Positions 35,801 through 58,930 of a stretch of 64,000 nucleotides of DNA are shown in pieces. Source of the stretch: Owenia fusiformis (taxonomy: Eukaryota; Annelida; Polychaeta; Sabellida; Oweniidae); assembly GCA_903813345.2 (NCBI GenBank), contig CAIIXF020000002.1, forward strand, positions 21,840,455-21,904,454, given 5' to 3'. The number at the start of each line of letters is the position of its first letter. Positions within the stretch are counted from its first letter, which is position 1. A program made the translations under genes and the position numbers. Below the pieces are notes generated by a model. The model searched no databases, was not told the DNA's origin, and saw only the letters and a program-made list of their open reading frames with translations.

Positions 35801-38800
35801 ACTTCAAATGCTTTTTTCTATGTGTATTTTTTTCTTGGTTCGATATTAAAGCAAATCAAACTTTGTGTCATATTTGAGCGAGTGTATGAGTAACATGTTT
35901 CAATGATTATTTTTTCTCTTTTCTTCTAAATTAAGTATAGTGGGCCTTTAATAAAGATTTATTTTATAGACGTATTAGTCTTCTTTTTATCCTTGGGTTA
36001 TCTCACCCTGTTGGTTATGGCCCGAGTCACAGTTATCACTTAAAATTAGCAGGGCGGTTGGGTGCCATATAAATCAAAATTAAGGATAACCGCATAAAGG
36101 GGGAATGTCGCCTAACTTTCTCCCCTAAACAATCAGTGATGTCCCATTATAATTGCTCATATAATATCTAACATACCTAAAATATATCTTGAGAACAAAT
36201 TAAGGGCACAATATCGCCAATATATACACGTATATTCGGAAAATCAACAGAACAACCAACTGTCGGATAAAATGCAATAAATTCTTTTTTAACATTCTGT
36301 CTCGCTCAACCTATAATTCATACCTGAATGGGTTTATATATGGCTGATATATGTCGTATACAATAATTGAAGCAACGGCAACCACCTCTGCAGATCCTGT
36401 TGACATTATCGCCATTAAGATGGCTATAAATGTCAGGTACACCCCTGTCTCCCCCAAAATTGCTTGGGCGATTACCGGGACTGCCAACCCTAAATGACCA
36501 GTACAAGCTTTGATATATATTATTTAGAAATACTAAATAGGGATGTTGGGTAACAATTGATATTCGTTTGAAAACTATTGAGGTTTTGTTTGTCAAAATA
36601 TTATAGGAAATGAAATAACTAATTTGATGCTGAAAAAGTATGTAAACTTCGTTGAAAAATCCTAGCATTAACTGAAATGAACACACTGATGATATTCTGT
36701 CACCCCTCTTTAAAGAATAGTACTGCTCAGTCCGATCATTTATCAATTAAATGCACAGCAAAATCATTTTCGTGCATATATCAATAAATTAATACACTGA
36801 AATGCTTTAAGCTGATTGGCCGAGACGCACTTGGCATGTTTGTTATAGGAAAAAATCATATGATTGATTAGAACAAACGTAACAAACAAAAGTGGGAAAA
36901 CCTTTTTCAAGATCACTTGCTGAAAGTATCGGCGTTCCTTGCGACCTTTCGATTGCTAGATACGCCAGTCCAAACGTTGTACCAAGTGTGAATGGTATGA
37001 CAAACCAAGTCAAGGCCCCTGATATGAATCCCCAAACGCCATGTATTGGTTTAGCTGCAACACTACTCTGCCAATAGGACTGATCCCCGAGGTTTGCCGC
37101 ATAACACATTATAACATTGATAACTCCAAACATTAAACCACCCGATGAGACTATTGTGACGTAACTTCCTTCAAGGTTACCATCTGGTCCAGTTGTATTC
37201 TGGAGGTAGTCGTAGATGATATCAGAGCTACCGTATGCTAAATCTTCAATTTCCGATTGTGACTTTAGGAATATTTCTTTTACTGTCACAATGAGAAAGA
37301 CGAAGATTAACGTGGTATTGAAGTAAGAAACGTAGAACGTTGCGCCCAAACCGCCTATTAAAGTGTAGGAACCTAGAATGAAGTAAGATGTGATAAATAT
37401 CTAAGCATAATTGCCAAAGGGAAAGGACCAAAAGTTGTAATGGAACTTAGCAAGAAAAGGCAAACTCTAAAGTGCATACCAGTCAAGAAAAACAAACCCC
37501 ATATATCCCAAAACCATGATCTAACGTGAAAAGAAACAATGCCCAATACCCCATTTCCCCCACCATTCAAAAACCGATATCACAATCCCAGACCAGAACA
37601 ACAAAGGACATTTCATTCATACTGAAGTTATTACAATATGTTGAAGAAAAAATTAGAAATTAGATAGCCAATAATCATAACATCAAAAATAGTTGTAGAT
37701 ACAAGTAATCATACAAGAGAGAGCATTCAGTCTCAAATGATGTGGGATAGATAAAATCCAGTCTCCAAGTCCAAAGGAGTTTGAAAGGGTCAACATCCAT
37801 TCATAAAAGCCGTCGCCATAATCCATAAAACACAATAATTCACAATGGTCACTGGGAGAAAACTATGGCTGGTTTCGATCCCTATTTTGAACATTTTGTA
37901 AACGTTGATGAAAGTGATATTTTGACTTTGCTAGACGACGAGTATAGCAAAAAATACAAATAGAAACGCAAAGTTAACATTAATTTACTAGTGAGTACGC
38001 AGTTATGTGCCAAAAACAGAGAGTTTAGCTACCACTGTCTTCAGGTTTTCTTGAGAAATTATTGCTGGCGTGGTTCGGAGAAAAGATTGTGAAATGAAGC
38101 CATGATTGATGACTTTCGTCTATTTGTGTATTATTAGTTTCTTCTGACTAACAAAACAATTGTAGACCTCTCCATTCGGTCAACCGTCAAAATCATATAT
38201 ATCGACTGTAAACCTTGAAACTACTGTTGACCTCGACCTTCGGTCTCTGTCAACAGTAGTTTCTCAGTTTACAGTCTCGGTATACAATTTTGCCGGTTGA
38301 CCTCTAAATTGTATACTGTTGTCTTGTTCAATGTTAATGAGAAGGTCAAGATAAGGCGCATTCATGTTCGATTCATTTGTCTTTTTTAACTCTAATTCAG
38401 AAGGGTATATCTCATTTACAAAATCTTCAAATACAGGGTTGTCCAAACTCAACAAGTCATCTATATACCCATCTGTTTTATTAAAAAGTTTAGCTATGTG
38501 GAGTTTTGTCTTATCTTTCATCATCTTTTGCAAAAACTTCATACGAGAAAAAAAATTCATAAGAGAATAGAAAAAGGTCTGCCAAAAGAGGAGCACAATC
38601 TGACCCCATTGGTATTCCTATATTTTGACGTAAAACAGTATTTCCAAACTTAACATAAAATTTATCAATCAAAAAGCCTAAAACCTCACAAAGTTGTATT
38701 GCAGTAAAAGAAATGTACTCACTACAACAAGCTCACTATAAAAACTCACTACTAAAGCTCACTACAAAATTAGGCCATTATGATGAAAATCCAATTTTAA

Positions 38801-41599
38801 GTCAAATAAGTCACCGACACATTTCCTATGTTAAATGCTAAACCTTCTTCAAACCGTCTTACTTGAGATGAATTTAGGAAAAGCGACAAATTATATTGAA
38901 TATCCATGTATATTTTGTGAATTTACCAATTACGGCTGCCAAGAGCATACAGGTCAATTCAATAGAAAGATCCTTCGTGAGACTTGTGAGGACGTCAGTA
39001 CCTCCCAGTAGCAGACTCATGCTGACCAAAAGGTTTGTGATACAAGCAAACACACAGAACACGATGTGCGTGGGTCCTCCAAAACGAACACGAATAACCT
39101 GTAAAAATCAATTGAAAAAGTTGAGAGCTTATGATATGACATTTATGATACCAATTTTACCAGTTGGTCTCAATATGTAAAATTGAAAACAATTTTGAAG
39201 TGTACCTGAAGGAATGTTTTTGCTCCTGGTGCTTTTGTTTTTAGTTGAATTGAAAGAAGTGAGAGGAAAAGTGGTGAAAGTGTTGCCCCAGCTCCATACC
39301 AAAATGGCCCACTTATGCCATACTAAAATAAATAAGCATAGGATTTGAAGTTCATTTAAAAAGAGGCTCGTGTAATAATAGGAAGAGCAATTGACTCATA
39401 TCTCAAACAAAGTAAAATTAAATGCACATATATTAAATCCAATACTTATTCAAATACATTATTCATGAGATACATTTGATGGAAAATTCAGAAACTGTTA
39501 AAATAGAAATGTTGCATTTAATGTTGATATGGTGGGGTGTATATGGTCTATTTGCCCTATCATATGATGTAAGATTCATCGTCTGAATTTTTGAAGAATT
39601 GAGGTGGATTATCATTGAGAAAGTATCTCAGTAATCTTTGTGGCATCAACGATATAGAGTTGTTTTTGTTACTACACTCTAAATATGTACGTACCTAGAA
39701 ATTAGGTTGATTACAATTATAACTTTTGGGTCACTCTATGTTCACTTGAAAACAGAAATTATTGAAGCCGAATATCAAAATTGATAAATTTATTTCGTCT
39801 TATTCTAATGACCCCAAAACAGCGCGCAAAGTACTTTTCAGACCCGAAAAAATCCTGAAGAAATTATTATTGCAACACGCGTAACGGGCATTGATCAAGT
39901 ACATTCAGGACAAAAAGAGGCAGTTGTGTCATCTTTTTACGTCTTCTCCAATGAGCTATCTTAGGAAGAAATTTATTTCGTCCACTACCATACCCTGCGC
40001 GCAGAGTCTAGTTATAAGCCGAAGCTCTCTTTTGAGAAGCGAAGTCGAACGAATATAACGGTACCACTACCATGGTATACGCTTCACATTTATACACCAA
40101 CCTTAACACCGACTGTTGCAGATTGAAGCAACGTTGCAGCCCAGGTCATTTGCGATACTATTGTTGTTGCTGTCAGGCCAATCGACACTTTACCTCCTGC
40201 ATCGAACGAAGTGTCAACATTCGACGCATCCCCATAGACGTATTTCCGGACACAATGGAAAGTTATTGCAATCAAAACAGAAAATAAGCCGAATCCCAAT
40301 ATGAGAAGAATAGCATTGCGTAATTCAATTGTCGGTTCCACGCCATTTATCACCTGTCTGGAAAGAAAACATTGATCACACGTTGTCGGATTGAGGGCAT
40401 TGATTGAGGTTTTAAAATATACAGGGTGTTTCATAATGACCATCCCCCCACCAAACACCAATCCTAAATAGCAGACCCACATATGTTATACATCATATTA
40501 AAGCATGTTCAAATCTGGACTACTGAATCGACTTTGATTAAGCTCTACAATTTTTACAACTTGCTACATATCTCTACAGATAGGTACCCATTTTACCTTA
40601 AGCATAGAATCTAAAAGCCACATTTTCCAAAATTTGCCATGTGTCCTGCAAAAAGCTATGATAACCATGCATTAATACATCTATGGTAATGTACAACTTC
40701 TAACATTTGATGAATGCTGAGGAAAATCGTAATATTTGAAAGACCTATATATCTAAATGTATTAAATATTTCGAAGAAATGATCAGAGAGCAATAGATGA
40801 TACAATGTACTATATAGCATTCTACTCCTCTCTTAAAGGGTGACGCATATCGTTTAGCAAATCGAACGCTCGTTTCTGGTGTTGCTCACCATTTAGTATA
40901 AAGGCTCGATCCCGGAATAATACTCAAGGGTTCAAAGGCTCGAGGTCGTTGTGTCAACACCTCTAACTTTTATATAACATTGGTACAGTATAGATCGTCA
41001 CACATTTATAAAAACCATATTGTTTTTATACGGGAAGCTTATCGGAACCCTTTAATTCCATCAGGAATAGTAGCCATAAATATGCAAATTGAGGGGATAA
41101 GTGACTACCAAATACAATTTCACTAATTATATGTTGCCAAAGATCAGGTATGCTAAGATTTGGCACGTAAGTCCAGAAGCTTTATTACGGTATATAGAGT
41201 AGGAGGGCATGTGATCTAGTATTGCCTGTGGATGGGGGGACGGTCATTATGAAACACCATGTATACATCCAAAGATAGTACTTCACAGTACTAAGCAACC
41301 AATATAGGGCATTGCCAAAAGACCACTACACCTAGGCTTGCATTTCATAATACCATGCAATGTAACATATACAACAAAAATAATGCATTGCTAGAAATTA
41401 TAAAAAGATTAACTATTTCTTAAAAGTAAAGTCAGAAATAAACAAAAAATAATTGTGTAATGGGGGGGGGGGGGATATTTTTGATAAAAAATATAATAAT
41501 ATAATATTCCTACCTTTTATTAATTGCATCTGCGTTTTCCACATAGAGTAAACACTCGAATATCAAAACCAAAGACAATTTCAATATTTCACCTTTCAT
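29898..41599 (-). CDS. DUR3-like urea-proton / sodium-solute symporter (SLC5/SSS superfamily), 8 exons, 780 aa
   Basis: Exons 41599-41514, 40357-40102, 39322-39206, 39098-38927, 37372-36902, 36489-36324, 31073-30649 and 30547-29898 have GT-AG introns and consistent phases. They give an uninterrupted 781-codon frame, close to the 650-800 aa usual for the family. Exon 1 encodes a cleavable-looking signal sequence, unusual for transporters but intact. Hallmarks: YGISGPFWYGAGATLSP, VIRVRFGGPTHIVF, SYTLIGGLGATFYVSYF, GSAEVVAVASIIVYDIYQPY, SRSTAAGTMAG and VWLGTASTYEGGL. These match DUR3 symporters, which import urea and in some species polyamines with a proton across the plasma membrane. A Cys-rich loop (431-466: CVLC...CTC...CTEC) follows the DIYQPYINPF motif. 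Substrate in animals is not established from sequence. No clear promoter motif was found. Confidence 0.93.
30548..30648 (-). other. Last intron of the DUR3-like gene
   Basis: A 101 bp intron with donor GTGAGTG and acceptor TTTGCACAG. It is the shortest intron of the gene. Confidence 0.8.
31074..32049. other. DUR3-like intron 6, 3' part
   Basis: No coding. Two short hairpins are visible. One is near 31208-31268 (TTAGACCTAGCC... and GGCTAGGTCTAA). The other is near 31945-32010 (AAGTTAAACCCAAT against ATTGGGTTTAACTT). Both may be edges of old elements. Confidence 0.4.
32050..35300. mobile_element. 3.2 kb foldback element with internal repeats, in DUR3-like intron 6
   Basis: Left sequences from about 32060 (TAGTGCAGTCAGTTA, GCACTTGCTATATATACG, GACCAAAGTATCATTA, ACCGAAGTGGTGT) recur inverted and in reverse order at 35300 down to 35100. 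Between the ends, a module (CATTTTCTCCAAAAGTCCAC, CAGGCACATTTCTA, GACCCCCTGCAGAACAGTTC) is repeated several times in both orientations. No protein is encoded; short frames are by-products of the repeats. The left arm is interrupted by the insertion at 32467-33264. Confidence 0.75.
32467..33264. mobile_element. 798 bp inverted-repeat element rich in CGTTC words, nested in the foldback
   Basis: CTATCACACCAAACTAGTTC at the left is matched perfectly as an inverted repeat at the right (21 bp). A third, internal copy of the end (TTGTTTGGTGTGATAG at 32863-32878) suggests two elements in tandem. The interior is crowded with GTTC, CGTTC and ACGTTC, more than a dozen in direct orientation. Base composition differs visibly from the AT-rich host element. 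There is no ORF. Confidence 0.75.
35527..35951. mobile_element. 425 bp TTAA-flanked MITE in DUR3-like intron 6
   Basis: The ends read TTAAAGGCCCACT and AGTGGGCCTTTAA. The TTAA duplication plus a 9 bp TIR is the pattern of piggyBac/Kolobok-type non-autonomous elements. A related terminus occurs at 2598-2798. Confidence 0.75.
35952..36323. other. DUR3-like intron 6, 5' end
   Basis: Nothing recognisable, apart from the splice donor GTATGA at 36323. Confidence 0.5.
37373..38178. repeat. DUR3-like intron 4, with a dispersed repeat
   Basis: Between about 37418 and 37835 the sequence matches words of the repeat at 21860-22060 (GGAAAGGACCAAAAGTTGTAAT, GTCTCAAATGATGTG, AAAGGGTCAACATCCATTC), separated by extra sequence. 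The rest is unremarkable. Confidence 0.5.
38179..38304. repeat. Hairpin-forming inverted repeat of about 55 bp arms
   Basis: GGTCAACCGTCAAAAT ... GACTGTAAACC ... AAACTACTGTTGAC at the left pairs with GTCAACAGTAGTTT ... GTTTACAGTC ... ATTTTGCCGGTTGACC at the right, around a short GACCTTCGGTCTC loop. It sits at the 3' edge of the reverse-transcriptase relic, so it may be that element's terminal structure. Confidence 0.75.
38264..38720 (-). pseudogene. Reverse-transcriptase relic with YIDDLL motif (Penelope-like type)
   Basis: On the minus strand a frame gives IGIPMGSDCAPLLADLFLF near 38640-38580. The next frame gives GYIDDLLSLDNPVFEDFV and IYPSELELKKTNES...APYLDLLINIE. This is the conserved order of the RTs annotated in many invertebrates around 'RYIDDLL..NPxF..xxxxIYPxELxL', which I associate with Penelope-like or related elements. 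It is short, frameshifted and lies in an intron, hence a dead fragment. Confidence 0.7.
39323..40101 (-). other. DUR3-like intron 2
   Basis: A 779 bp GT-AG intron with no recognisable repeat or exon. Confidence 0.6.
40422..41261. mobile_element. 840 bp mariner-type MITE in DUR3-like intron 1
   Basis: CAGGGTGTTTCATAATGACC at the left matches an inverted GGTCATTATGAAACACCATG at the right, continued by C-run and G-run tracts. TA dinucleotides border both ends. No transposase is visible, so it is non-autonomous. Confidence 0.8.
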
Positions 41600-41771
41600 G
41601 ATAACGAAATATGTGCTTGAAAAGCGATGCTACACCCGAGTCATAAATATTCAACTGAATGTCCTATTTAGATGTTATTTTTTTATTTGGACATAAAGAC
41701 AGAGGAGGGACTATTCCCAAATTTCATTTAGCCGCCAATTATTCAGCATGTGATATCCTACAGCAAGGACG

Positions 41772-42008
41772 ATTGGAAGCCGTTATTCAAACTCGATACT
41801 CCGTTGCCCGGCGTAGACCAATTTGGTAAAAATATTACTCATATTTTGAAGACTAGAACTGCTGAAGAAGCAGGTATACTACCAAAATATTCGCAATGAC
41901 CATCTTTCAACGAAAAACTTGATCCAAAGAGAACCTTGTAGAAATATTTTTTACTTAATTGTTCCACTGCAGGCAACGGAGTATTGAGTTTGAATAATGG
42001 CTGCCAAT
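41772..42008. mobile_element. MITE, copy B, upstream of the DUR3-like first exon
   Basis: 237 bp with ATTGGAAGCCGTTATTCAAA and TTTGAATAATGGCTGCCAAT ends. It shares interior words with copy A at 29525-29771 (GAAGACTAG, AACCTTGTAGAAATATT, AGGCAACG). It lies about 170 bp upstream of the ATG and could therefore overlap the promoter. Confidence 0.75.
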
Positions 42009-42989
42009 CCTCGTTGATCCCACAGCAGGGGGAGGGGGCGGATTTCCCAAAAATGACCCATCATATTGGCACGTTCGAAAACAAATTTATAAACAGGCCT
42101 CAATTTGCCATTGAAATGGATCTCCAAATGTTCACTGTAGATTTATGAGTATTCTCTACAAGTATGGATCGAGTAACTTCAATAGTATTACCGTAGGTTT
42201 GAAATGATGATGTTGAACTGATGTTAACGCCATTCCCACGATTTCAAATTTTACTTTGCGCATGCGCAGCACTGAGAGAGCACGTGCTAATGATTGTTCA
42301 CGTGATCACATCCTGCAATTTGATTGGAGATGATGCGGGAGATGATGTAATGGGGAATCCCCGAATACGATAGAATATGAAAGAATTATGGGAGCTACTC
42401 ACTTCTTCTGATCCCACAGCATATAAGGATTTCTCTCAATTTAATAGAACAGCAAACAACGTGTCAGTCTCCGCGTATTCTGCACGTTTACACAAATTAT
42501 TTATGTAGTCTGCAAACAATGCGTGTCAATTATAATATTGATGTAATAATGTTATACACACTGTTATTTCATTAAGTTCTAAATTTAACAACATACCATT
42601 AACAGATATGCAGCTTTTCACTACCTAGAAATAAGATTTCCACATAGCTAGGCAAGGTGTGTCCAATTCAAGCCAATCAGAACACGCTATTACACGTAAC
42701 TGCATTCCGTTAGAATAACGCATTTGTTGTCAAGGTGAGGATATTAAAATTGATGCTTTGCCAACTTTACCCTGGTCTTGTAAAAATATGTTCTTTTAGT
42801 GATTTTTCATCTTCTAGGTGATTTTCTAGAAAATATTTTACAATGTGTGAAAAGAATTTAAGTCCAAGTCTCGATGCATTGTGGCTGCTTCATTCAACTC
42901 TCACAGGCGTTGTTTCCGGAAATCATTTGCAGAATTTGAACAAACATTATTAGTTCTACAAGCTATTATATCATTATCGTTTTACACAT
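42009..42989. other. Upstream region of the DUR3-like gene
   Basis: This is the probable regulatory region between the gene and the large palindrome. CACGTG words occur near 42280 and 42300. No gene or repeat is recognised. Confidence 0.35.
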
Positions 42990-43564
42990 TTACACATAGA
43001 CAAGTTCCAATTTCAGAATATCTCAAGGGAAATGGGTTTTGGGGCATTTTTTAGAAAAAGCAACGGACCTATTTTTCTAGATCAGTTTGTCATGCTGATC
43101 AAGATATTAAAAGATGACAGCTCAACGGGATTGCCATGACACTGATTTTTAGCGTTTTTACCCCCCCCCCCCTAGGAAAATATTTTAGGGGGTACTATAA
43201 TATTAGTTTATAACCCAAAGAATATATGAACTATTGTTCCGAGTTCTACAGCATACATTGTTAGTACAGAGATGAATACTATCCTCAAGTTATAGGTTGA
43301 CATCTTTGTTGGTTTTGGAAAAATAGTAAAATACAATTAACTAGAAAAATATGCAATTCTTGTCATTTTTTCTTGCTTATTATATATATGTAGCTTCAAG
43401 CAAAACATGATAACTTTAACAGCTCAAAGTAGTATTATAACAACATTCCCAAGCTATGTGTGATATTGCAATACATCTATTATAGTGATGAAGTACTATT
43501 TTGTATTTTAATATGACTTTAAAGTGCCCTACCCCTGGTAAATAGAAGAAAGTTGGTGTGTTTC

Positions 43565-45810
43565 TTTCTGGTTTTAATATTTTATTGACTCCTTAGTTGA
43601 AGATACAATCAATTTTGTCAGTTTACCATGAGTAGCTTTACAATGGTTAACAATGTACATGAATAGAGGGTTGGGACCTTAAAAATACCAGAACTGTTAA
43701 GTGGCATCCTTGTGCAACCCTCTTCAGAGCATTTCCCTTACACTCCGATAAAATCTGCAGGGGATACTATATTTATTCATTTGGAAAACGCTTTTAGAGC
43801 AGCGGCACTCAATCGGTGCATCCAATACATCATATATAAAATATAAATGGGATAAAACATATCATGCAAAAGGCCACTAAAAACATGCATACGACTATTG
43901 TGTGCACTGTACATGTATTTTCTTTAAAAACAATTTGACATATTTGTCAAACTTCACGTAATTATCATGTCCCCACAAGATCAAAGTGTCATCTCCCAGA
44001 GCCCAACATGTTTTTAGTTGTACACTTCCTGCTAGAAAGTCAGAGGAGAGTTGGTGGTTGCAGTTTGACACAACATTGTTGAAAAATACATTCCTATCAC
44101 TACCAAAGTACGGACAGACAAAAAGTCTATGCTGTATAGTATCTTTAACATTGAGGTTACAAAAGAGACATATACCGTTGCCTTGACCCCATCTTTGAAG
44201 GTCGGAGCGAAGGCCAAAACATCCCGTTCTGGCCATGAATTTAAGTTTCTGACCATAGAAATCAAAGTCTGAGTTCATATAATTTTCCTTAGAGAGATTA
44301 CTTTTCAAACATTTGTAAAGATTTAGGGATAACTTCTCCCCTATTGAAGAGAAGAAAGCTACATGGCTTAAATCATTTGAGATCTGGATGTATGTTTTAT
44401 ACCAGTTATCATCCTGCCTTTGAAGGATGCCATCCAGACCGTGTTTTATCAGGATCTCCTGAATATTGGCAAAATAGGGGAAAGCCTTACCTTCCTGACC
44501 ATTTATGTATTTATTGTACATTGTGTTGAAGATAGCTTTGTGAACTGACCCTTCTTTAATAGAGTGCTTTAAATATAAAAAATAATCGATTTGGCGTTTT
44601 TCAATGACATCTAGAATAGGTCTTAATCCTAAATCTCCTAACAATGCCTCTCTTGCAGGGCGGCATCTAAGCTGGAGAATGGCTCTTGCTACATTGTATT
44701 GCATTGATTTGAATTTTTTGCAAGTTGTCTTATTCAGAATCAAGGTGGGGCATCCATGTAATATGGCTGGCAAAAACATTGTATCATGCATTTTAATTCC
44801 GAATTTGACTCGCATAACATTGCAATGTTTGGTTAAGGTTGAGCTTATCATTCCTTGTACTCTTTTTGATTTAGAGCTTAACATATTATTTATGTGGAAA
44901 GAATCCTTCATGGACCTGTCAATATGTATACCCAAATATTTATAGTTCTGAACTTCGGAAATATATGAGTTCCCCAAAATCCAAGTTTTTTGTTTATCTA
45001 GACGTTTTCCTACTATCATAACTTTTGATTTTTTTGAGCTAAATTTAAATCCCCATTTGATTGAGAAATTATCTGCAATTTTCAACATTTTGTTTAAACC
45101 CTCTTCATTGTCAGCAAGTAGTACAATGTCATCAGCAAACATTAGAGCTGGGATTTTTTGCCCTTCGAAAGGTATACCTGTTGATTCTTCTTGGAGCATT
45201 TCAACTAGTTCTGACATTACAAGGGAGAATAGGGTCGGGGAAAGACAGCAGCCTTGCTTTAGGCTATTAATGGAACTACTTTCTTCCCAATCAGTTGAAA
45301 TTGATCCAAATATAACTTTATTTTGAACACCATTGTATAGTTCCCGTAGGAGTCTCCACACTTTACCCTGAATCCCTTTCTCCCATAATCGAATGAATAA
45401 TAAGTCCCTATTTACAACATCAAATGCTTTGGATATGTCCAAAAATGCTAGAAATGTCTTCCTATTGTTACTTTTGCGCATACTGCAGAGGCCCTTTAAA
45501 GCAAACAAATGGTTTTCCAATCTTAGCCCTGACCGAAATGCACCTTGCAGATCCCCAAGTAGATTGTTATCTTCACAGAACTTAATGATTCTTGTTTCAA
45601 TTACAGAGGTAAAAAGTTTATATACATTAGAATTGATAGTTATTCCTCTATAATTGTCCAAAACTTCCTTATCTCCATTTTTATGAATTGGGAACAGGAG
45701 ACCCTCTTTCCATTCTGAGGGCATTTCCTCTCGTAAAGAAACCTATATATCTCAGATACTAATGAAGATGCTGACTTCAAATTTTCAGGATTTGGTATGC
45801 TAGGTAATTT
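43565..45810 (-). mobile_element. 5'-truncated non-LTR retrotransposon (LINE), second copy, inserted in the palindrome arm
   Basis: It comprises the RT-containing frame 45724-43895 and a frameshifted upstream piece (45800-45725, SIPNPENLKSASSLVSEIY). The 3' region reaches AATAAAATATT near 43580. It occupies the left arm of the palindrome and has no counterpart in the right arm, so it inserted after the inverted repeat formed. Confidence 0.8.
43895..45724 (-). pseudogene. LINE ORF2 C-terminal part: reverse transcriptase, 609 codons open
   Basis: RT motifs are in order: YRGITINSNVYKLF, GAFRSGLRLENHL, FLDISKAFDVVNRDLL, LKQGCCLSPTLFSLVM, the catalytic LMFADDIVLLA and SKKSKVMIVG. The thumb and C-terminus end with a zinc-knuckle-like CLFCNLNVKDTIQHRLFVC. 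The long open frame points to recent insertion. A frameshift near 45725 and lack of an endonuclease domain make it inactive. It differs in sequence and RT box (FADD) from the copy at 26832-29040 (YADD), so two LINE families are present. Confidence 0.9.
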
Positions 45811-45982
45811 GTATGACAAAAATGACAAAAAGAAAAAACTCCATTGCCATAGTAACAAGAATATCAAAAATTTCACAAGTGACACTCTATCTTATGCAGA
45901 AAATACTATCGTATTTGACGACATGTCAAAAATCTGGTGGAAATAATTTTGTCACTCCTGATTTGACCCTGGAAAGGTTCAG

Positions 45983-46531
45983 GTAAGTTATCGCAAACAA
46001 TTTCAGACAGTTATATCTTTGATTATGACTATTTTTTGACCATAAAGACGGGTATACAGGGATAGCAAAGTCAATCGGACTCTGAGATATTTAGCTAACC
46101 CATCAATATGTTTTTTCAAAGTTGTTGACCTCATTTCACCAAAAATGCAATTATTTTTACAATGTTTAATGCATTACTATTCTTTATTTTAATGTATGAA
46201 ATAGCTCTTGGTTTTAGTTCATTTTAGTCATCCAAATTCAGTATCCACTTTTCCTCTTAGGAAATAGAACATGTCTCAAAGCATATTCTATTATTATGCA
46301 TTCAACAATATAATCAAAGGTTCCACTTTTCGATAAAAATTAGGTCAACATTTTTAGTAAAAAGTATGTTGATTGGTCCATTCCCTTTAATATCACTCTG
46401 ATTAACTTCATTATCATTATATTTACTTTTCTTGAAGATAATGAATATATCTAAAAGATAAACCCATGTTCATGGTCAGAAATATTCATAATTCAAGTTA
46501 GAATTAACTGAAATTGTTTGCGATAACCTAC
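45983..46531. mobile_element. 549 bp MITE
   Basis: GTTATCGCAAACAATTTCAG at the left is matched by CTGAAATTGTTTGCGATAAC at the right, a 20 bp perfect inverted repeat. The interior has no ORF. It lies in the left arm region of the large palindrome. Confidence 0.8.
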
Positions 46532-46594
46532 ATGCTCCTTTATATAAATACTATCAAATGCTTTAACCATGACAGTTGAAGAAAACTGAAGTCT

Positions 46595-46760
46595 TGGTAT
46601 TTAAAGGCAGAATCAGATCTATATAGAGTAAACAAAATTGAAAGCAACATATACAGTTGACCTACAAATGTATTCTTACAATCTCAAATATAATATCTCC
46701 TAAAAGATCCACAATATGTTATTAATTATAAAGTTGTTTAAAATTCAAAGTGTAAAAAGG
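46595..46760. repeat. Dispersed repeat shared with 18.8 kb and 60.6 kb
   Basis: Words such as AAAATTGAAAGCAACAT, ACAGTTGACCTACAAATG, ACAATCTCAAATATAATAT and CCACAATATGTT recur with changes at about 18755-18890 and 60585-60745. Confidence 0.6.
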
Positions 46761-46761
46761 G

Positions 46762-47147
46762 GGAATGTTCAAATTCTCCCAAATAATAATAAATGAGTTA
46801 TACTAAGTTATACAAGTGTGAGGCACCATTTGTGGTATCTGTGTCTGGAGTTAGTGATGTTAGCACCGTTTGACAATCTTACCACCATTAATAAGAAGCA
46901 AGTATTGGCTACAATGCTTGTACATGGCTCCACTCCTATAGCTATGAGCAAGTCTGATTTTATGCATATTGCAGCTAGGTTGACTACTGGAAAGTCATAA
47001 AGATTCTTAGCTACTTTTCTAACATCTGGCTGTGATGCATCATGGCTTAATGAGGACTCTGTTATATGGTCAGATGATGAGAACTAACAGCTTTACGGAA
47101 CTTTTGCCATGATTTGCACATTGTAAATTACCCTTCTGAATTACTGG
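46762..47147 (+). other. Unrecognised, partly coding-like stretch
   Basis: A 60-codon frame at 46818-47000 (PFDNLTTINKKQVLATMLV...DFMHIAARL) and a later short frame near 47115-47200 (LHIVNYPSELLDERGVKVV) read like eroded protein sequence, separated by stops. I could not place them in a family. They may belong to the mobile element that makes up the palindrome. Confidence 0.3.
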
Positions 47148-48299
47148 ATGAGCGTGGTGTAAAAGTGGTTTTGAAAAATAGCAAATTTATCTTTATGTAA
47201 AACTACAAAAGTAATAAGTTCATCAAAGTTGATCAACTGGTTGCTATGGAAACGGAGATCATATGTCAAAAAGTACACAATTTCGTCAAAATGTAAGACA
47301 CCCCATGAGACAAAACACATATTATTTAAATGAAATTGGAAAGAAACACCATAAAAACATTTTTAGAAAACTTATTCAGAGTATGTTTGATAATATTAAA
47401 TCAAGTGGTGTTTTATCCTATCCACACAGTGAAATCTATTGCTCATGATTATAAATGATTATAAAATAAATAACCAATTGTCCTGTTATTTACAGATATT
47501 ATTCACATCATTATGTTTGACTATCATGGAAAGTTTCATCAGTGTTGGTTTACTGGTTACTACACTATGCAGATTTATACCCCTTGGTATGATTTTTAAT
47601 GGGGGTACAATGAAAGCCATCTATAATTCCTAGAATATACAGCCAATTATCTTGATATTTACAGGTAATCGTCTACATAGCATGTCTTACAACCATGACA
47701 ATTTTCATCAATGTGTATCAATTGGTTGCTATGGAAACATAAATCATTTTTTCAAAAGTACACATTAAGGGAGGTACTATGAAAGCCATATATAATTCCT
47801 AGAATATCTAACCAATCATCTTGTTATTGGCAGGTAGTCACTACTCACCATGTTCTTCCACTATGACAAAGTTCATCAATGCGGGGCAAATGGTTGCTAT
47901 GGTAACAGAAATCATTTGTTAAAAAGTACACATTAGGACGTACTATGAAAGCCATTTATAATTCCTTAAATATCAAAACAATCATTATGATATTTGCAGA
48001 CAATCTACTACTTATCATGTCCTACCATGATGACAAGTTTCATCAATGTGAGTCAAATGTGGGAAGAAATCTATTTGTTAAAAAAGTACACATTTCGTAA
48101 AATTTTAAGACACACCCTAAGACATTGAAAATCTTCATCAAATTAGAGGAATTAGCATGAAAACATTTTTAAAAACCTATTTTGAGTATGTCTGATAATA
48201 TTTAATCAATGGATATTTCATCTGGGCCATTTGATATATTGTATTTGCTTATGATAATAAAACTATGCAGAATGCGGCTGTCACATTATGCGTAGGGAC

Positions 48300-48480
48300 A
48301 TAGTAAAATATGAGCTGATCTCACTTAGTCATCTTTTATATCATTTGCATCAAAATCCTCATTCATAGATCTTTCAACGTCTACTTCTGTCAAAGCATCC
48401 GTTGCAATCTGTATGTGACTATATGTCTATGAGATCATTAGGTGGAATGGGTTGGTCTGGCCAATTTTGCTCTATTTTGC
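48300..48480 (-). pseudogene. Short eroded C-terminal protein fragment in the palindrome spacer
   Basis: The minus strand reads NWPDQPIPPNDLIDI, a stop, then HIQIATDALTEVDVERSMNE and an acidic end DFDANDIKDD with a stop codon. The acidic tail resembles C-termini of the transposon-associated protein group seen at 4722-5445, but this is only an impression. Confidence 0.3.
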
Positions 48481-48639
48481 CATCAACAAGTTACCACGTC
48501 ACTTGTAATAAACAAACTAAGAGATAATTACAACTATTACACCCAATTAAAAATACTTGAAATGCTTCTTAATGAATTCTAAAAACAATGAACAGTTGAA
48601 AAAACCATCAGACATAAAAAAAGTTGAGAACAACAGCAT

Positions 48640-49215
48640 GTATTACTCTGAGTGTAAAACATGTCCGTTGTGTTACGCGGTATATGGCATACATTCATGG
48701 TTGCGCGGTATTTGTGATTATGGCATATTCCACAGGTGAGTATGCGATATTCCGCAGTGAATATGCGATACATTGATTTCAGTGAATACCCGATACTCAC
48801 TTGTGGAATATGTCATACTCACTTGCGGAATATGCCATACACCACAGGTGAATATGACATATACTGCAGGTGAAAACGTGATACAGAAAGCCTTGATTTG
48901 ATTGGTTGCGAGAATCGACTCTAAATGTAAAACTATGCTGGATTACCAATATAGTTAGTGCGTCGAGTACTAATATATGAATCCTGGGTTGATTGAGTAA
49001 GTTTATTACGCAAGATTGGTGACTGATACTTCTGCTAAGTTAATATATTCGATACACAGTACTGTTGATTCAGTAATCACTATAATAATTTATAACGTTT
49101 TACTTGTTCGTTCAATCGATGCAATTGACAATTGCGCACTTCTGTATCATGTTCTCATTGGTTAGTGTGTATGCCATATACCGCTGGTGAATCTGTCAAA
49201 CACCGCGTAACACGT
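48640..49215. repeat. Cluster of palindromic ATATGCCATA / ACAGGTGA words at the centre of the palindrome
   Basis: GGCATATTCCACAGGTGAGTATGC, GAATATGTCATACTCACTTG and ATGCCATACACCACAGGTGA alternate in both orientations at 48715-48870. GTTACGCGGTATATGGCATAC at 48671 has an inverted partial partner near 49165-49210 (ATGCCATATACCGC, CCGCGTAACACG). It is a nested set of short hairpins. Confidence 0.6.
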
Positions 49216-51808
49216 TGACGACCAGTGATGGCAATAAAGCGTCCACTGTTGTGATTGATGTGATAAGTTTTATTAAATGTTTCCATGCTTATTTCTCCCA
49301 AAATGATGAACATACGAACATATGCTTAATGTCAAAGGTTACATGAGTCTTAGATTTTTACGAAAATGTGTACTCTTTTAACAAATGATTTCTGTTACCA
49401 TAGCAACCAAATTACCAACATTGAGGCACTTGTTATACTGGTAGGACATGTAAACGGATGATTACCCGTAAATATCAAGACGATTGATTGAATATTCTAG
49501 GAATTATACATGGCTTTCATAGTACCCCCTTAATGTGCACTTTTTGACAATTTATTTCTGTTACCAGAGCAACCAATTGACCAACATTGATGCCACTTGT
49601 CATACTGGTAGGACATGATAAGCAGATGATTACCCATAAATATCAAGATGATTAATTAAATATTCCGGGAATTATACATAGTATCTCCTCAATGTGTATT
49701 TTTTAATAAATTATTTCTGTTACCATAGCTACCAAGTGTTAAACATTAATGAAACTAGTCATAGTGGTAGTGCATTATAAGAAGATATATATCTGTAAAT
49801 ATCAAGATGAATGGCTGTATATTCTAGGAATTATAGATGGCTTTCATTGTACCCCCCTTAAAATCATACCAATGGGGTATAAATCTGTTTACCATAGTAA
49901 CCAGTTATCCAACACTGATGAAATTTTCCATGATAGTCAAACATAATGATGTGAATAATATCTGTTAATTTCAGGACAAATGGTTACTTATTTTCTTCAA
50001 AAAGTTGAACACAAATAAAGAATTCTTTGGAAAAGTGCCACATCCTCTTTCTAAATTTACTTGCATTGCCATATAATCATCAGCAATAGATTCCACTGTG
50101 TGGATAAGATAAAACAGCAGTTGATTTAATATTATCAAATATACTTTGAATAAGTTTTCTAAAATGGTTTCATGGTGATTCCTTCCAATTTCATGAAACT
50201 AATATGTGTTTTGTCTCATGGGGTATCTTACATTTTGACGAAAATGTGTACTTTTTAACATATGATCTCCATTTCCATAGCAACCAGTTGATCAACTTTA
50301 ATGAAACTTGTCATAATGGTAGGACATGATAAGTACATGATTACCTGGAAAAATCAAGATGATTGACTCTATATTCTAGGAATGATATATGGCTTTCCAA
50401 GTACCCCCCTTAAAATTACACCAGGGGGGTATAAATCTGAATATTTCCAAAACGCTGAAAAACTAGACACCAATAATTTCAGAATCAATGTATAATAATA
50501 AACCACAAATAACCTATATGAAGAGAAATTTGCTACTTTTCAAAACCATTTTTACACCACGCTCATCCAGTAAATGGGTTGTAAAGGATTATTAGGTATA
50601 TACCAGGAGGTATATATGGCTCAAATGACTCGTGACCCAGTCCGTGGGACACTATAGTACATTACTTGTGCATGATGACCACCATAGTCTAGGTGTTCAA
50701 ATGAGATAAATTGATGATTATAGTGTTTAGACTTTATGTCAATGTCCAGACTGTATGCCAACCTCTCTAGTATGTGATTACACTAGATTTCATTATGATA
50801 CATGTACTAAATTGAAACCTTACATATAAAAGATCTAAAGTCCTATATTCTAGTTATAAATGTATTAGAATGTCACCTAACATTTGATGATGTTTTGAAT
50901 GCACTGATTTGGTGTACATGTCTATCAATACATGTTTCTAACTTAATGCTGCAAAATGATAAATTTGACTACATCCACTTTCTTTAATTTTCCAGGGATA
51001 GGGACTATAGTCATATTAAAATAACAAAATAGTACTTCATACCTTAAATGAATGTATTACAATATCACACATAGCTGTTAAAGCTGCCATATTTTGCTTG
51101 AAGCTACAAATATAAAATTGGCAAGACAAAAATTGCGATCTTTTTCCTGTTTATTGTATTTTTTCAGAGACCAATAAGGATATCAACCTATACCTTTAGG
51201 ATAGTATTCATATTTGTACTAGCAATGTATGGTGTAGATAACAATAGCTCATGTATCCTTTTAGTTATGAACTAGTTTCATAGTACCCCCTAGAATATTT
51301 TCCTAGGGGAGTAAAAATGCCAAAATTCAGTTTCATGCCCATCCCGTTGAGCTGTCATCTTTTAATACCTTCACTAGCATGAAAAACTGATCTAGTAAAA
51401 ATGGGTCTGTTGCTTTTTCTAAAAAATGCCTCAAAAACTTGAATTATTTCAATTGGAACCTGCCTAACATGTTTATACACATTTTCATTTGGCCTGTAAC
51501 ATTCTCGAACTTTATTTTATGCAATAAATTGTTGTGAACGTTGAATTCTTTAAAGATCATAAAATTTAACGTTGTGTAACATAATTTTTAGCAAAAGGGT
51601 TTCCGTGGCGTATAATCTAATCATGGAAGGCAAAATACAAAAAATACCGTTGGTTTTGATAATAGGGTGCCTAATATATGTAGGAAGCGCCGATGCAATT
51701 AACAAAAGGTAATATTTTCATGCATTTATTACTTATTTGTTATATATCGTGATTTTACGTAATATACATACATTCCAAGAAGTGGAACGTTACATGTATA
51801 TATATATT

Positions 51809-52086
51809 ATGGGACACGATGGGACATCGAGGGAGCAATAGAGATAAAACTATTTCATGGGACCATGCTCGGGCATTTCCATGGGACATCGGAGGACATT
51901 GTCCCACGTCCGTCGTTGGGACATAACTGGACAAATAAAGGCCATTTTCTGACAAAATGACGCTGTAATTCGGACATCATTGGACAAAATGGGACAACGG
52001 ACATTGTCCAATGATGTCCGGGGGACAACACAGGGCAAGCTCGGACAAAACGGACAAAGGGACAAAGCCGGACAATGTCCCATGGG
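51809..52086. mobile_element. 278 bp element built from GGACA words
   Basis: It begins ATGGGACACGATGGGACATC and ends GGACAATGTCCCATGGG, so the ends are roughly inverted. Inside, GGACA occurs about fifteen times on the plus strand and TGTCC about four times. There is no ORF. It lies in the first intron of the broken DUR3 copy. Confidence 0.65.
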
Positions 52087-52395
52087 TTTAAGGCTAGCTG
52101 AAGGACAGCTATGACAGACGGTGGTTTGCTTTCATAGTAAATTCTATTCTGGTTTCACCTTTAATGTTTTTATTTTAGTTCATGATTATCTCAACAACAA
52201 CGTCGAAAGTTTAAACTGACACCTTGGACTTCTTTAAATATGATGACTACTTATATGTTAAAAGGATAATACGTGCACTTCGCATGTAGGTATCATTTTT
52301 AGGTTAGCAGACAGCAGTGCACTCGCAAATTAAATGCGTGGCATCGTAACATAGTCATCATACATCACTCTAAATAGCATTCTAAAATAAAGGTC

Positions 52396-54890
52396 ATTTG
52401 TCATTTATTGCTACAACTTTGTACATCATTTCGTTTTGAAAACAACCTACAGATTGAACCCAAAAATACAAGCCTCTAATTTTAATCATTTTGCCAATAA
52501 TGATGGATAATAAAGCAACCCAACGCTACAACTTTGTACATCATTAAGTTTTGAAAACAAGTTACAGATTGACCCCAAAAATACAAGCCTCTAATTTTAA
52601 TCATTTTGCCAATAATGAAGGATAATGAAGCAACCCATCGCTACAACTTTGTACATCATTTCGTTTTGAAAACAACCTACAGATTGAACCAAAAAATACA
52701 AGCCTCTAATTTTAATCATTTTGCCAATAATGATGGATAATAAAGCAACCCATCGCTACAACTTTGTACATCATTTCGTTTTGAAAACAACCTACATATT
52801 GAACCCAAAAATACAAGCCTCTAATTTTAATCATTTTGCCAATAATGATGGATAATAAAGCAACCCAACGCTAGAACTTTGTACATCATTAAGTTTTGAA
52901 AACAAGTTACAGATTGACCCCAAAAATACAAGCCTCTAATTTTAATCATTTTGCCAATAATGAAGCAAACTCATCGCTACAACTGTGTACATCATTTCGT
53001 TTTGAAAACAACCTACAGATTGAACCCAAAAATACAAGCCTCTAATTTTAATCATTTTGCCAATAATGAAGGATAATAAGGCAGCCCATCGCTACAACTT
53101 TGTACATCATTTCGTTTTGAAAACAACCTACTGATTGAACCCAAAAATACAAGCCTCTGATTTTAATCATTTTGCCAATAATGAAGCAACCCATCGCTAC
53201 AACTTTGTACATCATTTCGTTTTGAAAACAACCTACTGATTGAACCCAAAAATACAAGCCTCTGATTTTAATCATTTTGCCAATAATGAAGAATAATGAA
53301 GCAACCCATCGCTACAACATTGTACATCATTTCGTTTTGAAAACAACCTACATATTGAACCCAAAAATACAAGCCTCTAATTTTAATCATTTTGCCAATA
53401 ATGAAGCAACCCATTGCTACAACTTTGTACATCATTTCGTTTTGAAAACAACCTACTGATTGAACCCAAAAATACAAGCCTCTGATTTTAATCATTTTGC
53501 CAATAATCAAGAATAATGAAGCAACCCATCGCTACAACATTGTACATCATTTCGTTTTGAAAACAACCTACATATTGAACCCAAAAATACAAGCCTCTAA
53601 TTTTAATCATTTTGCCAATAATGAAGCAACCCATCGCTACAACTTTGTACATCATTTCGTTTTGAAAACAACCTACTGATTGAACCCAAAAATACAAGCC
53701 TCTGATTTTAATCATTTTGCCAATAATGAAGGATAATGAAGCAACCCATCGCTACAACATTGTACATCATTTCGTTTTGAAAACAAGTTACAGATTGACC
53801 CCAAAAATACAAGCCTCTAATTTTAATCATTTTGCCAATAATGAAGCAAACTCATCGCTACAACTGTGTACATCATTTCGTTTTGAAAACAACCTACAGA
53901 TTGAACCCAAAAATACAAGCCTCTAATTTTAATCATTTTGCCAATAATGAAGGATAATAAGGCAGCCCATCGCTACAACTTTGTACATCATTTCGTTTTG
54001 AAAACAACCTACTGATTGAACCCAAAAATACAAGCCTCTGATTTTAATCATTTTGCCAATAATGAAGAATAATGAAGCAACCCATCGCTACAACTTTGTA
54101 CATCATTTCGTTTTGAAAACAACCTACTGATTGAACCCAAAAATACAAGCCTCTGATTTTAATCATTTTGCCAATAATGAAGCAACCCATCGCTACAACT
54201 TTGTACATCATTTCGTTTTGAAAACAACCTACATATTGAACCCAAAAATACAAGCCTCTGATTTTAATCATTTTGCCAATAATGAAGCAACCCATCGCTA
54301 CAACTTTGTACATCATTTCGTTTTGAAAACAACCTACTGATTGAACCCAAAAATACAAGCCTCTGATTTTAATCATTTTGCCAATAATGAAGAATAATGA
54401 AGCAACCCATCGCTACAACATTGTACATCATTTCGTTTTGAAAACAACCTACATATTGAACCCAAAAATACAAGCCTCTGATTTTAATCATTTTGCCAAT
54501 AATGAAGGATAATGAAGCAACCCATCGCTACAACTTTGTACATCATTTCGTTTTGAAAACAACCTACATATTGAACCCAAAAATACAAGCCTCTAATTTT
54601 AATCATTTTGCCAATAATGAAGCAACCCATCGCTACAACTTTGTACATCATTTCGTTTTGAAAACAACCTACTGATTGAACCCAAAAATACAAGCCTCTG
54701 ATTTTAATCATTTTGCCAATAATGAAGGATAATGAAGCAACCCATCGCTACAACATTGTACATCATTTCGTTTTGAAAACAACCTAAATGTTAGCCCCAA
54801 ATATACAAGCCTCCAAATTAATTATTTTGCCAATAATGAAGGATAATGAAGCAACCCGTCGCTACAACTTTGTACATCATCATTGTAAAA
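52396..54890. repeat. 115/105-bp satellite array with higher-order structure
   Basis: The unit contains TTGAACCCAAAAATACAAGC, TAATTTTAATCATTTTGCC, AATAATGAAGGATAATGAAG, CATCGCTACAACTTTGTAC and ATCATTTCGTTTTGAAAAC. Phase positions advance by 115 (52451, 52566, 52681, 52796, 52911). After that long (115) and short (105/106, lacking GGATAATGAA) units alternate for most of the array. The eight-unit block 52911-53791 (881 bp) is repeated at its start by 53792-54013 and beyond, with the same private variants (GATTGACC, AAACTCATCGC, AAGGCAGCCC). The last unit (54788) is degenerate. Frames such as those giving MIKIRGLYFWVQ repeats are by-products. Confidence 0.9.
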
Positions 54891-54974
54891 ATATATGAAC
54901 ATTCAAGATGGTCTTGTAATAAATTCAATGTTTTCTCCCCAGACGCGTGATAAATGGTGTACAACCAACAATTG

Positions 54975-55414
54975 AATTACCCAGATGCGAGTAGAAATAA
55001 TCTTGATTTACGTCATTAACAATTCCAAATTCAGTCAAAGTAATATCATATTTGAAATCTACATGTAAAATTACATCTAGAAATGTGGTTTTAAAAAGTG
55101 TTTATCAACTTTGAAAAAATAATTTTCTTTGAAAATGTGACTTCTAGCTCGGGGAGATTCCCCATAGACCCCATGCTATAAAATCACAAAAAATGAAATA
55201 TCTTTTCTTTTAGTGGACAGATAATATTTTGCTTCATTGGACATATTTTCATTAGTATAAGTATCAGACACATAAGGGTTATATGAAAATTGAGCCACTT
55301 AAATTGATAATATTCAAGTTTAAGGGAACTTTATTATATACCTACCATGTTAATTGACCCGAATCAGCCACCTGGTGGTGAAACTGGTAACTACCTACTC
55401 GCATTTGGGTAATT
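54975..55414. mobile_element. 440 bp inverted-repeat element interrupting DUR3-copy exon 2
   Basis: AATTACCCAGATGCGAGTAG at the left and CTACTCGCATTTGGGTAATT at the right form a 20 bp inverted repeat with one mismatch. The interior is AT-rich and without an ORF. Its left end coincides with the point where homology to exon 2 ceases. Confidence 0.75.
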
Positions 55415-55669
55415 GCGTGATGGAAACATTACATTTATAAACTCGACATATGAAATCTAAAATATATAATATAAAATATAATATAATCTTTGTTCCTCAA
55501 AAATAAATTTGGATTCACTAAATTAACCTCCTGATAGGAAGAGAAAGTTCCTAAAAGTGTTACAAAATAGACAAATGAGAAAAAAACAGAGAAAATGAAA
55601 CATAAAACCAGTCATAAGAAAAAAGAAACGAATTCCAAGTAGCGAAACTATGGTCCTTAAATTCCCAGC

Positions 55670-58600
55670 TAACAATTTTACGTTGTGATAACGTCGTCAG
55701 AATATATGTCTCAAGTTGTAGCAACGTTAAATATGGAACGTTGTAGGTACAGGAAGGTGTGGACTCGCACAGATGTTTAAAGAACGTTACATTTGACTTA
55801 AATATCACGTGTCAGGAACGTAGTAGCGACCTTAACAATTACGTCACCAAAATAACGAAACTGTAACGTACTTACATTACGTCATATATACGTGGCCAAT
55901 CTAAATTTCTGGTAACGTTGATATGGAACGTTGTAGGTACAGGAAGGTGTGGACTCGCATAGATGTTTAAAGAACGTTAGATTTGACTTAAATATCACGT
56001 GTCAGGAACGTAGTAGCGACCTTAACAATTACGTCACCAAAATAACGAAAATGTAACGTACTTACATTACGTCATAAATACGTGGCCAATCTAAATTTCT
56101 GGTAACGTTGATATGGAACGTTGTAGGTACAGGAAGGTGTGGACTCGCACAGATGTTTAAAGAACGTTACATTTGACTTAAATATCACGTGTCAGGAACG
56201 TAGTAGCAACCTTAACAATAACGTCGCCAAAATAACGAAACTGTAACGTACTTACATTACGTCATATATACGTGGCCAATCTAAATTTCTGGTAACGTTG
56301 ATATGGAACGTTGTAGGTACAGGAAGGTGTGGACTCGCACAGATGTTTAAAGAACGTTACATTTGACTTAAATATCACGTGTCAGGAACGTAGTAGCGAC
56401 CTTAACAATTACGTCACCAAAATAACGAAACTGTAACGTACTTACATTACGTCATATATACGTGGCCAATCTAAATTTCTGGTAACGTTGATATGGAACG
56501 TTGTAGGTACAGGAAGGTGTGGACTCGCATAGATGTTTAAAGAACGTTAGATTTGACTTAAATATCACGTGTCAGGAACGTAGTAGCGACCTTAACAATT
56601 ACGTCACCAAAATAACGAAAATGTAACGTACTTACATAACGTCATAAATACGTGGCCAATCTAAATTTCTGGTAACGTTGATATGGAACGTTGTAGGTAC
56701 AGGAAGGTGTGGACTCGCACAGATGTTTAAAGAACGTTACATTTGACTTAAATATCACGTGTCAGGAACGTAGTAGCAACCTTAACAATAACGTCGCCAA
56801 AATAACGAAACTGTTACGTTCTTACATTACGTCATATATACGTGGCCAATCTAAATTTCTGGTAACGTTGATATGGAACGTTGTAGGTACAGGAAGGTGT
56901 GGACTCGCACAGATGTTTAAAGAACGTTACATTTGACTTAAATATCACGTGTCAGGAACGTAGTAGCGACCTGAACAATTACGTCACCAAAATAACGAAA
57001 CTGTAACGTACTTACATTACGTCATATATACGTGGCCAATCTAAATTTCTGGTAACGTTGATATGGAACGTTGTAGGTACAGGAAGGTGTGGACTCGCAT
57101 AGATGTTTAAAGAACGTTAGATTTGACTTAAATATCACGTGTCAGGAACGTAGTAGCGACCTTAACAATTACGTCACCAAAATAACGAAAATGTAACGTA
57201 CTTACATTACGTCATAAATACGTGGCCAATCTAAATTTCTGGTAAAGTTGATATGGAACGTTGTAGGTACAGGAAGGTGTGGACTCGCACAGATGTTTAA
57301 AGAACGTTACATTTGACTTAAATATCACGTGTCAGGAACGTAGTAGCGACCTTAACAATAACGTCGCCAAAATAACGAAACTGTAACGTACTTACATTAC
57401 GTCATATATACGTGGCCAATCTAAATTTCTGGTAACGTTGATATGGAACGTTGTAGGTACAGGAAGGTGTGGACTCGCATAGATGTTTAAAGAACGTTAC
57501 ATTTGACTTAAATATCACGTGTCAGGAACGTAGTAGCGACCTCAACAATTACGTCACCAAAATAACGAAAATGTAACGTACTTACATTACGTCATAAATA
57601 CGTGGCCAATCTAAATTTCTGGTAACGTTGATATGGAACGTTGTAGGTACAGGAAGGTGTGGACTCGCACAGATGTTTAAAGAACGTTACATTTGACTAA
57701 AATATCACGTGTCAGGAACGTAGTAGCGACCTTAACAATAACGTCGCCAAAATAACGAAACTGTAACGTACTTACATTACGTCATATATACGTGACCAAT
57801 TTAAATTTCTGGTAACGTTGATATGGAACGTTGTAGGTACAGGAAGGTGTGGACTCGCATAGATGTTTAAAGAACGTTACATTTGACTTAAATATCACGT
57901 GTCAGGAACGTAGTAGCGACCTAAACAATTACGTCACCAAAATAACGAAAATGTAACGTACTTACATAACGTCATATATACGTGGCCAATCTAAATTTCT
58001 GGTAACGTTGATATGGAACGTTGTAGGTACAGGAAGGTGTGGACTCGCACAGATGTTTAAAGAACGTTACATTTGACTTAAATATCACGTGCAAGGAACG
58101 TGGAACCAACCTAAACGATGACTTCGCCAAAATTACGAAAATGTAACGTACTTACATTACGTCATAAATACGTGGCCAATCTAATAAATTTCTGATACGT
58201 TAATTATGGAACGTTGTAGGTACAGGAAGTTGTGGAATCGCACAGATGTTCAAAGAACGTTACATTTGACTTAAATATCACGTGCCAGGAACGTAGAACC
58301 AACCTAAAAGATAACTTCGCAAAAATAACGAGACTGTAATGTGCTTATGCAACGTCACATATACGTGGCCAGTTTTAAGTTCTGGTACGTTAATTATGGA
58401 ACGTTGTAGGTACAGGAAGGTGTGGACTCGCACAGATGTTTAAAGAACGTTACATTTGACTTAAATATCACGTGCCAGGAATGTAGAACCAACCTTAACA
58501 ATGACTTCGCAAAAATAGTGAGACTGTAATGTGCTTATGCAACGTAACATATACCTGGCCAGTTTAAAGTTCTGGTAACGTTTGTCTTGGACCGATGTAG

Positions 58601-58930
58601 GCACAGGAAGGTCTGGACTCGCACAGATGTTTATACAACATTACATTTTACTTAAATATCATGTGCTAGGAATGTAGTAGCAACCTTAACAATGACTGCA
58701 AAAATAAAATAACAGACTGTAACGTGCTAATGCAACGTCACATATACGTGGCCAAGTTAAAGTTCTGGTAACATTAACTATAGAACGTTGTAGGCAAAGG
58801 TAAGTGTGGACACGCATAAATGAGTATACAAGTTACGTTCGACTTAGATATCATGAGCCAGGAATGTAGTACCAACCTTAACAACGACTTTGCCAAAATA
58901 AAGAGACTGTAACTGCTTGTCACATAAATG
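55670..58930. repeat. 190-bp satellite array with higher-order repeats and a decaying right edge
   Basis: Twelve near-identical 190-bp units start at 55731, 55921, 56111 and so on to 57821. Further units from 58011 are progressively more diverged and indel-bearing and fade out near 58930. Landmark words are ATATGGAACGTTGTAGGTAC, AGGAAGGTGTGGACTCGCA, AAATATCACGTGTCAGGAAC, CAAAATAACGAAA and TACGTGGCCAATCTAAATTT. Variant sites (CGCAC/TAGATG, GTTAC/GATTT, AGCG/AACC, TCA/GCC, GAAAC/ATG) follow an A-B-C period of three units first, then a two-unit period. Each unit is unusually dense in ACGT cores. Confidence 0.92.

Follow-up and report, generated by a model that had tools for sequence, protein, structure and literature searches.

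Is an isolated first exon the remnant of a dead gene copy, or the start of a gene that continues further along the contig? The question was raised by a stretch of 64,000 nucleotides from the annelid Owenia fusiformis (contig CAIIXF020000002.1, positions 21,840,455 to 21,904,454 of the forward strand), referred to in the following as the window. A gene on its minus strand is predicted to encode a DUR3-like transporter, and the signal-peptide exon of this gene has a twin on the plus strand. A previous interpretation of the window by itself, which we call the sequence-only reading, had described the twin as part of a partial duplication. According to the present analysis, the twin very probably opens the coding sequence of a second DUR3-like gene, which is complete and arranged head-to-head with the gene on the minus strand.

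The two head-to-head genes

The minus-strand gene comprises eight exons, running from 41599 down to 29898, with a total of 780 codons. Exon 1, the signal-peptide exon (41514–41599, 86 nt), is followed after an intron of 1.2 kb by exon 2 (40102–40357), exon 3 (39206–39322), exon 4 (38927–39098), exon 5 (36902–37372), exon 6 (36324–36489), exon 7 (30649–31073) and exon 8 (29898–30547, through the stop codon). The twin of exon 1 lies at 51623–51708 on the plus strand. As had been claimed, the two first exons agree in length, phase and donor: both are 86 nt long, both interrupt their last codon after two bases (AAA AG|GTA) and both have a GT donor. Their DNA matches at 76% over 92 nt (E about 1e-11), and the two copies differ at 22 of 87 nt and, in an alignment that reproduced the earlier count, at 10 of 29 residues. 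A charged start, a hydrophobic core and the motif ADA-INKR are retained in both, the ADA being, we presume, a cleavage site of the signal-peptidase type.

When the genome was searched with 368 amino acids of the minus-strand protein, the closest relative was found about 7 kb beyond the end of the window, on the plus strand. We therefore give its position in continued window coordinates, in which the same assembly is read on beyond the window end at 64000. In these coordinates, exon 2 of the plus-strand gene lies at 71271–71526, exon 3 at 71925–72041, exon 4 at 72714–72885, exon 5 at 75333–75812, exon 6 at 76088–76253, exon 7 at 76983–77425 and exon 8 at 85703–86352, all on the plus strand. Together with the twin as exon 1, this makes a gene of eight exons and 789 codons, all of them open, with AG and GT at every internal border. 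The exon-8 match has 76% identity over 190 amino acids, and 597 of 780 aligned residues are identical between the minus-strand and plus-strand proteins. The copy had appeared partial because the window stops before exons 2–8. The duplication also extends well past 41514–54994, the limits previously assigned to it, with matching DNA blocks spanning 30.7 kb to 77.4 kb and plus-strand exon 8 further out at 85.7–86.4 kb.

The second gene would have arisen by an old head-to-head inverted duplication. Its exon 1 most likely splices from 51708 to 71271, where the intact exon 2 begins, over an inferred intron 1 of 19,562 nt that begins at 51709, runs through the window end at 64000 and continues to 71270. 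The product would be a 789-residue transporter of the sodium:solute symporter (SSS) family, for which exon 1 would supply the start codon, the hydrophobic signal-peptide core and the A-D-A cleavage-like motif. The suggestion that exon 1 still serves as a secretion-signal exon for another transcript comes close to this explanation, the partner being most likely the exon at 71271.

Both proteins match the Pfam domain SSF (PF00474), scoring 53.3 and 59.1 bits with a cut-off of 22.8. In a search of solved structures (E up to 0.001), each protein matched only DUR3 urea–proton symporters, in three of three matches; the chains were 9j7c, 9x5u and 9vim, which are three distinct sequences, and the best E values were between about 1e-93 and 1e-98. 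Scores to TIGR00813 (sss), a general superfamily model for prokaryote annotation and not a DUR3 model, were 123.8 and 109.4 bits, below the curated cut-off of 184, with E values of 1e-31 to 1e-35. From these similarities, both genes would encode DUR3-like SSS transporters, with urea transport as a putative function.

Selection on the two genes

Substitutions between the two genes were estimated by the Nei–Gojobori method, with bootstrap ranges. The ratio of nonsynonymous to synonymous substitution rates (dN/dS) was 0.204 (0.17–0.25) over 780 codons, at a synonymous divergence of about 0.7 per site. Exons 2–8 had ratios between 0.14 and 0.31. For exon 1 alone the ratio was 0.138 (0–0.45), below the value near 1 by which the sequence-only reading had proposed to recognize a relic. 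A plain relic is rejected because the downstream exons are intact and dN/dS is well below 1. Three marks of a pseudogene were looked for in the plus-strand copy and not found: stops and frameshifts are absent, the downstream exons are present and dN/dS is not near 1. That the copy was called a relic is due only to the edge of the window; the gene is complete and under constraint, and its first intron is very long.

Changes could be assigned to branches, using three paralogues as outgroups, over 337 comparable codons, from exons 2–5 only. On the plus branch, 32 changes were synonymous and 39 nonsynonymous; the corresponding counts for the minus branch were 44 and 33, and 33 sites were undetermined. 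The plus branch carries fewer amino-acid changes than the neutral prediction (binomial P about 1e-4). In a protein tree of exon 2 (10 rows, up to 84 residues), the minus-strand and plus-strand genes were sisters, with support of 96/92. In exon 1, 11 of the 22 changes are nonsynonymous, compared with 80% expected under neutrality (P 0.002), and 3% of the runs that simulated a fully neutral exon 1 ended with no more than 10 residue changes (P 0.03).

The plus strand was then scanned from 51.4 to 71.25 kb for signal-peptide first exons, defined by a charged start, a hydrophobic stretch, a cleavage-like site and a phase-2 AG|GT donor. There was one candidate, the twin, while 50 shuffles gave an average of 0.06. 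A relaxed scan of eight other paralogues, with a hydrophobicity threshold of 7 compared with 8 for the plus-strand gene, gave a candidate separate signal-peptide exon in six of them (shuffle means 0.03–0.2 per stretch; one of the paralogue stretches, L013, contains 500 N). In all six, one candidate lies 1.4–5.3 kb upstream of exon 2, and one of them has a second at 8.7 kb; three of the candidates are clearly similar, of the type MKD-L-F-VLF. Because six of the eight paralogues had such candidates, having the signal peptide in an exon of its own, with a phase-2 donor, appears to be usual in this family. When the genome was searched with the 29 residues of the twin (E up to 10), the two matches reported were the twin itself and exon 1 of the minus-strand gene; this search detects close relatives only, the candidate first exons of the other six paralogues not being reported by it.

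An exon-2 fragment in the predicted intron 1

Intron 1 of the plus-strand gene contains an extra copy of the edge of exon 2. The left part (54926–54974, plus strand) consists of 17 nt of intron end with an AG acceptor, followed by the first 32 nt of exon 2, and the right part (55415–55423, plus strand) has 9 nt, 8 of which match exon 2. In between, at 54975–55414 on the plus strand, is a miniature inverted-repeat transposable element (MITE) of about 440 bp with AATT at both ends. A good acceptor and a correctly framed exon-2 start had been read at 54943, 3.2 kb from exon 1, and both withstood comparison: when the true exon-2 edge (55 nt) was compared with the intron, 47 of 55 nt were identical at this place, against a maximum of 32 in 100 single-base shuffles. 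Besides itself, the only genome match reported for the fragment was exon 2 of the plus-strand gene. The MITE was held to have cut exon 2 after about 12 codons. The element is indeed there, but it is ruled out as the cause of the truncation, as the similarity to exon 2 resumes beyond it and breaks off only at about 55423.

The element has the short length, terminal inverted repeats and high copy number of a MITE. Its ends, ACCCAGATGCGAGTAG and CTACTCGCATTTGGGT, are present in the window copy and in all six copies that were fetched, and all seven are flanked by AATT or AATA on the left and by AATT on the right, letters that may be part of the element or else mark a fixed target site. Among the best 40 of 3118 first-look candidates, all 40 scored matches (its own included) were 97–100% identical. 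The family is very abundant and uniform, and resembles a recent burst. Two tandem arrays also lie in intron 1: one with a 115-bp unit (52410–54880, about 22 copies), which occupies most of the DNA separating exon 1 from the fragment, and one with a 190-bp unit (55723–58913, 16.8 copies). The start of the 190-bp unit matches at least 39 other places on many contigs and is a dispersed repeat type.

Several points weigh against joining the twin to the downstream gene. The plus-strand intron 1, at 19.6 kb, far exceeds that of the minus-strand gene and the distances between the candidate exon pairs of the paralogues. The fragment supplies a nearer acceptor, which pyrimidine content does not separate from the true one (14 of 20 each). 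A half-neutral history of exon 1 yielded 10 or fewer residue changes in 19% of the runs (P 0.19), and its freedom from stops is uninformative, since 42% of the neutral runs were stop-free; for these two reasons, exon 1 alone is not decisive. The relaxed scan gave no candidate first exon in two of the eight paralogue stretches, and both scans were devised after the twin had been seen, which makes them somewhat weaker. Finally, both the 51708|71271 junction and its transcription are deduced from the genomic sequence.

These points raise the question of whether exon 1 together with the exon-2 fragment could be all that is left of a third copy that has died, the downstream gene having another, unrecognized first exon or having recently lost its own. 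The distance of 3.2 kb between exon 1 and the fragment would suit such a copy, being inside the exon-1-to-exon-2 range of the family (1.2 kb in the minus-strand gene, 1.4–5.3 kb for the candidates). In addition, first exons are highly diverged among the paralogues, and a homology search with exon 1 over about 10 kb upstream of exon 2 in the eight others gave nothing above 24 bits. However, no further candidate signal-peptide exon with a phase-2 AG|GT donor lies between 51.4 and 71.25 kb, the dN/dS of exon 1 resembles that of the other exons, and its share of nonsynonymous changes is below neutral. We consider a dead third copy unlikely. Nor was another partner for exon 1 found at 55–71 kb, where the longest stop-to-stop frame has 120 codons and none of the three frames tested, of 15 listed, matched Pfam.

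The tandem arrays flank the exon-2 fragment, and such places are where assemblies can err. An assembly artefact, in the form of a false inverted or duplicated copy, is nevertheless scarcely credible: the synonymous divergence between the copies is far too high for one gene assembled twice, and there is not a single N in the window or in its continuation to 100,000.

In a three-way comparison over 63 nt, the fragment agreed with the plus-strand gene against the minus-strand gene at 9 sites and with the minus-strand gene against the plus-strand gene at 6, of which 4 are in the acceptor region; 2 sites were private to the fragment, and at 2 all three copies differed. In the 17 nt of its intron part, the fragment differs from the true plus-strand edge at 4 sites and from the minus-strand gene at 2. 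Compared with plus-strand exon 2 over 15 codons, it has 5 synonymous changes and 1 nonsynonymous change (dS 0.62, dN 0.03), giving P 0.006 against neutrality, or 0.019 from the first 12 codons, with only six differences in all. This suggests that the fragment was coding for much of its history. The earlier proposal that the copy had been functional for a while may suit this fragment, within so tiny a sample, but not the plus-strand copy, for which eight open exons and a low dN/dS do not support a relic.

We weakly prefer a history in which a tandem duplication of the plus-strand gene was followed by one deletion that fused the two copies. The breakpoints would lie in exon 2 of the first copy, at about codon 16, and in intron 1 of the second, so that in the present gene the promoter and exon 1 would come from the first copy and exons 2–8 from the second; the MITE would then have inserted in the leftover fragment. 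This history is preferred because the fragment looks once-coding and sits at the usual family distance from exon 1, and it is based on six substitutions in one genome, which counts against leaning on it heavily. There is a lesser but appreciable chance that no tandem copy ever existed and that the fragment (about 63 nt) was copied from the true exon-2 edge as templated filler during break repair, a difference in history only, compatible with an intact plus-strand gene. Its similarity to the true edge ends on both sides, the upstream flank (45–120 nt compared) having no match to either gene above shuffles, and the few private and all-different sites would fit a recent copy. On the other hand, the contrast between dS and dN, together with the divergence of the intron part, fits an older, once-coding copy and is not what a recent, neutral one should display, although the numbers are very small.

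Were the fragment's acceptor used, translation would stop at 54992 and give a product of 45 residues. It is unlikely that the plus-strand gene is a young, deletion-born chimera in which the leftover acceptor competes for splicing in intron 1 and the decoy exon sets the output of the gene. That the fragment acts today as a poison or alternative exon, lowering this output, would be compatible with the twin being exon 1, and we regard it as quite improbable. The AG acceptor is intact, it is closer in sequence to that of the minus-strand gene than to the true plus-strand one, and the phase is correct, with an early stop. Against this, a MITE almost identical to the scored members of its family sits inside the fragment, and a second exon-2 start was not seen above 24 bits in the eight other paralogue stretches, where diverged ones could escape, the fragment itself scoring 26.6 bits. 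Overall, the fragment is an unusual but small decoy exon piece, any use of it in splicing being putative. Gene finders could easily overlook exon 1 of the plus-strand gene or end their model at the decoy acceptor.

Surrounding repeats and comparison with known systems

Between the two genes, the left arm of an inverted-repeat block (43037–43559, minus strand) pairs with the right arm (50971–51436, plus strand) at 75.7%. Between these arms lie inner ones at 47141–48223 and 49263–50573, which are 72–92% alike and consist partly of 159–168-bp tandem units; they are perhaps the centre of the inverted duplication. Tandem repeats of 22 bp lie between them at 48714–48874. The segment 51800–52100 is dense in GGACA/TGTCC, with 19 occurrences in 301 nt compared with 0.5 per 300 nt across the window. 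Intron 6 of the minus-strand gene holds a cluster of inverted and tandem repeats (32073–35261, 76–94% alike). A stretch at 38.3–38.5 kb that looked reverse-transcriptase-like by eye had no Pfam match above cut-off.

Exon 8 has 26 matches in the genome, including both genes, some of them only pieces. Other clusters of DUR3-like paralogues occur at G000 C7 26.00–26.08 Mb (in both orientations) and at C5 5.35–5.38 Mb; some of the matched stretches contain stops, which may be mere intron read-through. In this setting, the two genes would be the product of an ordinary inverted duplication within a transporter family that has expanded, and both of them appear to be functional. On a small scale, and with synonymous sites diverged by about 0.7, they illustrate how inverted duplication, growth of tandem arrays and a MITE can reshape a gene while its coding exons remain under selection. 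A DUR3-like gene of clam gill is discussed in PMC6836662, and none of the passages on DUR3 in that paper or in PMC6019070 concerns the present locus.

Both proteins resemble the DUR3 urea–proton symporters of known structure, which were their best solved matches; unlike those entries, the genes described here have a signal-peptide exon of their own and numerous paralogues within the genome, and their urea transport is putative. They are like the sodium:solute symporter family in having the SSF domain above cut-off, and unlike it in falling under the curated cut-off of TIGR00813. Head-to-head pairs of inverted paralogues occur in expanded gene families. The present locus has the divergent sister genes of such pairs, with inverted-repeat remnants between them, but one copy is distinguished by its long intron 1 and by a second, broken exon-2 edge. 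Tandem exon duplication and decoy or poison exons are likewise a known notion. The plus-strand gene shares with these the presence of a second acceptor and exon-2 start between exon 1 and the true exon 2, whereas here the extra piece has only about 45 exonic nt and is interrupted by a MITE.

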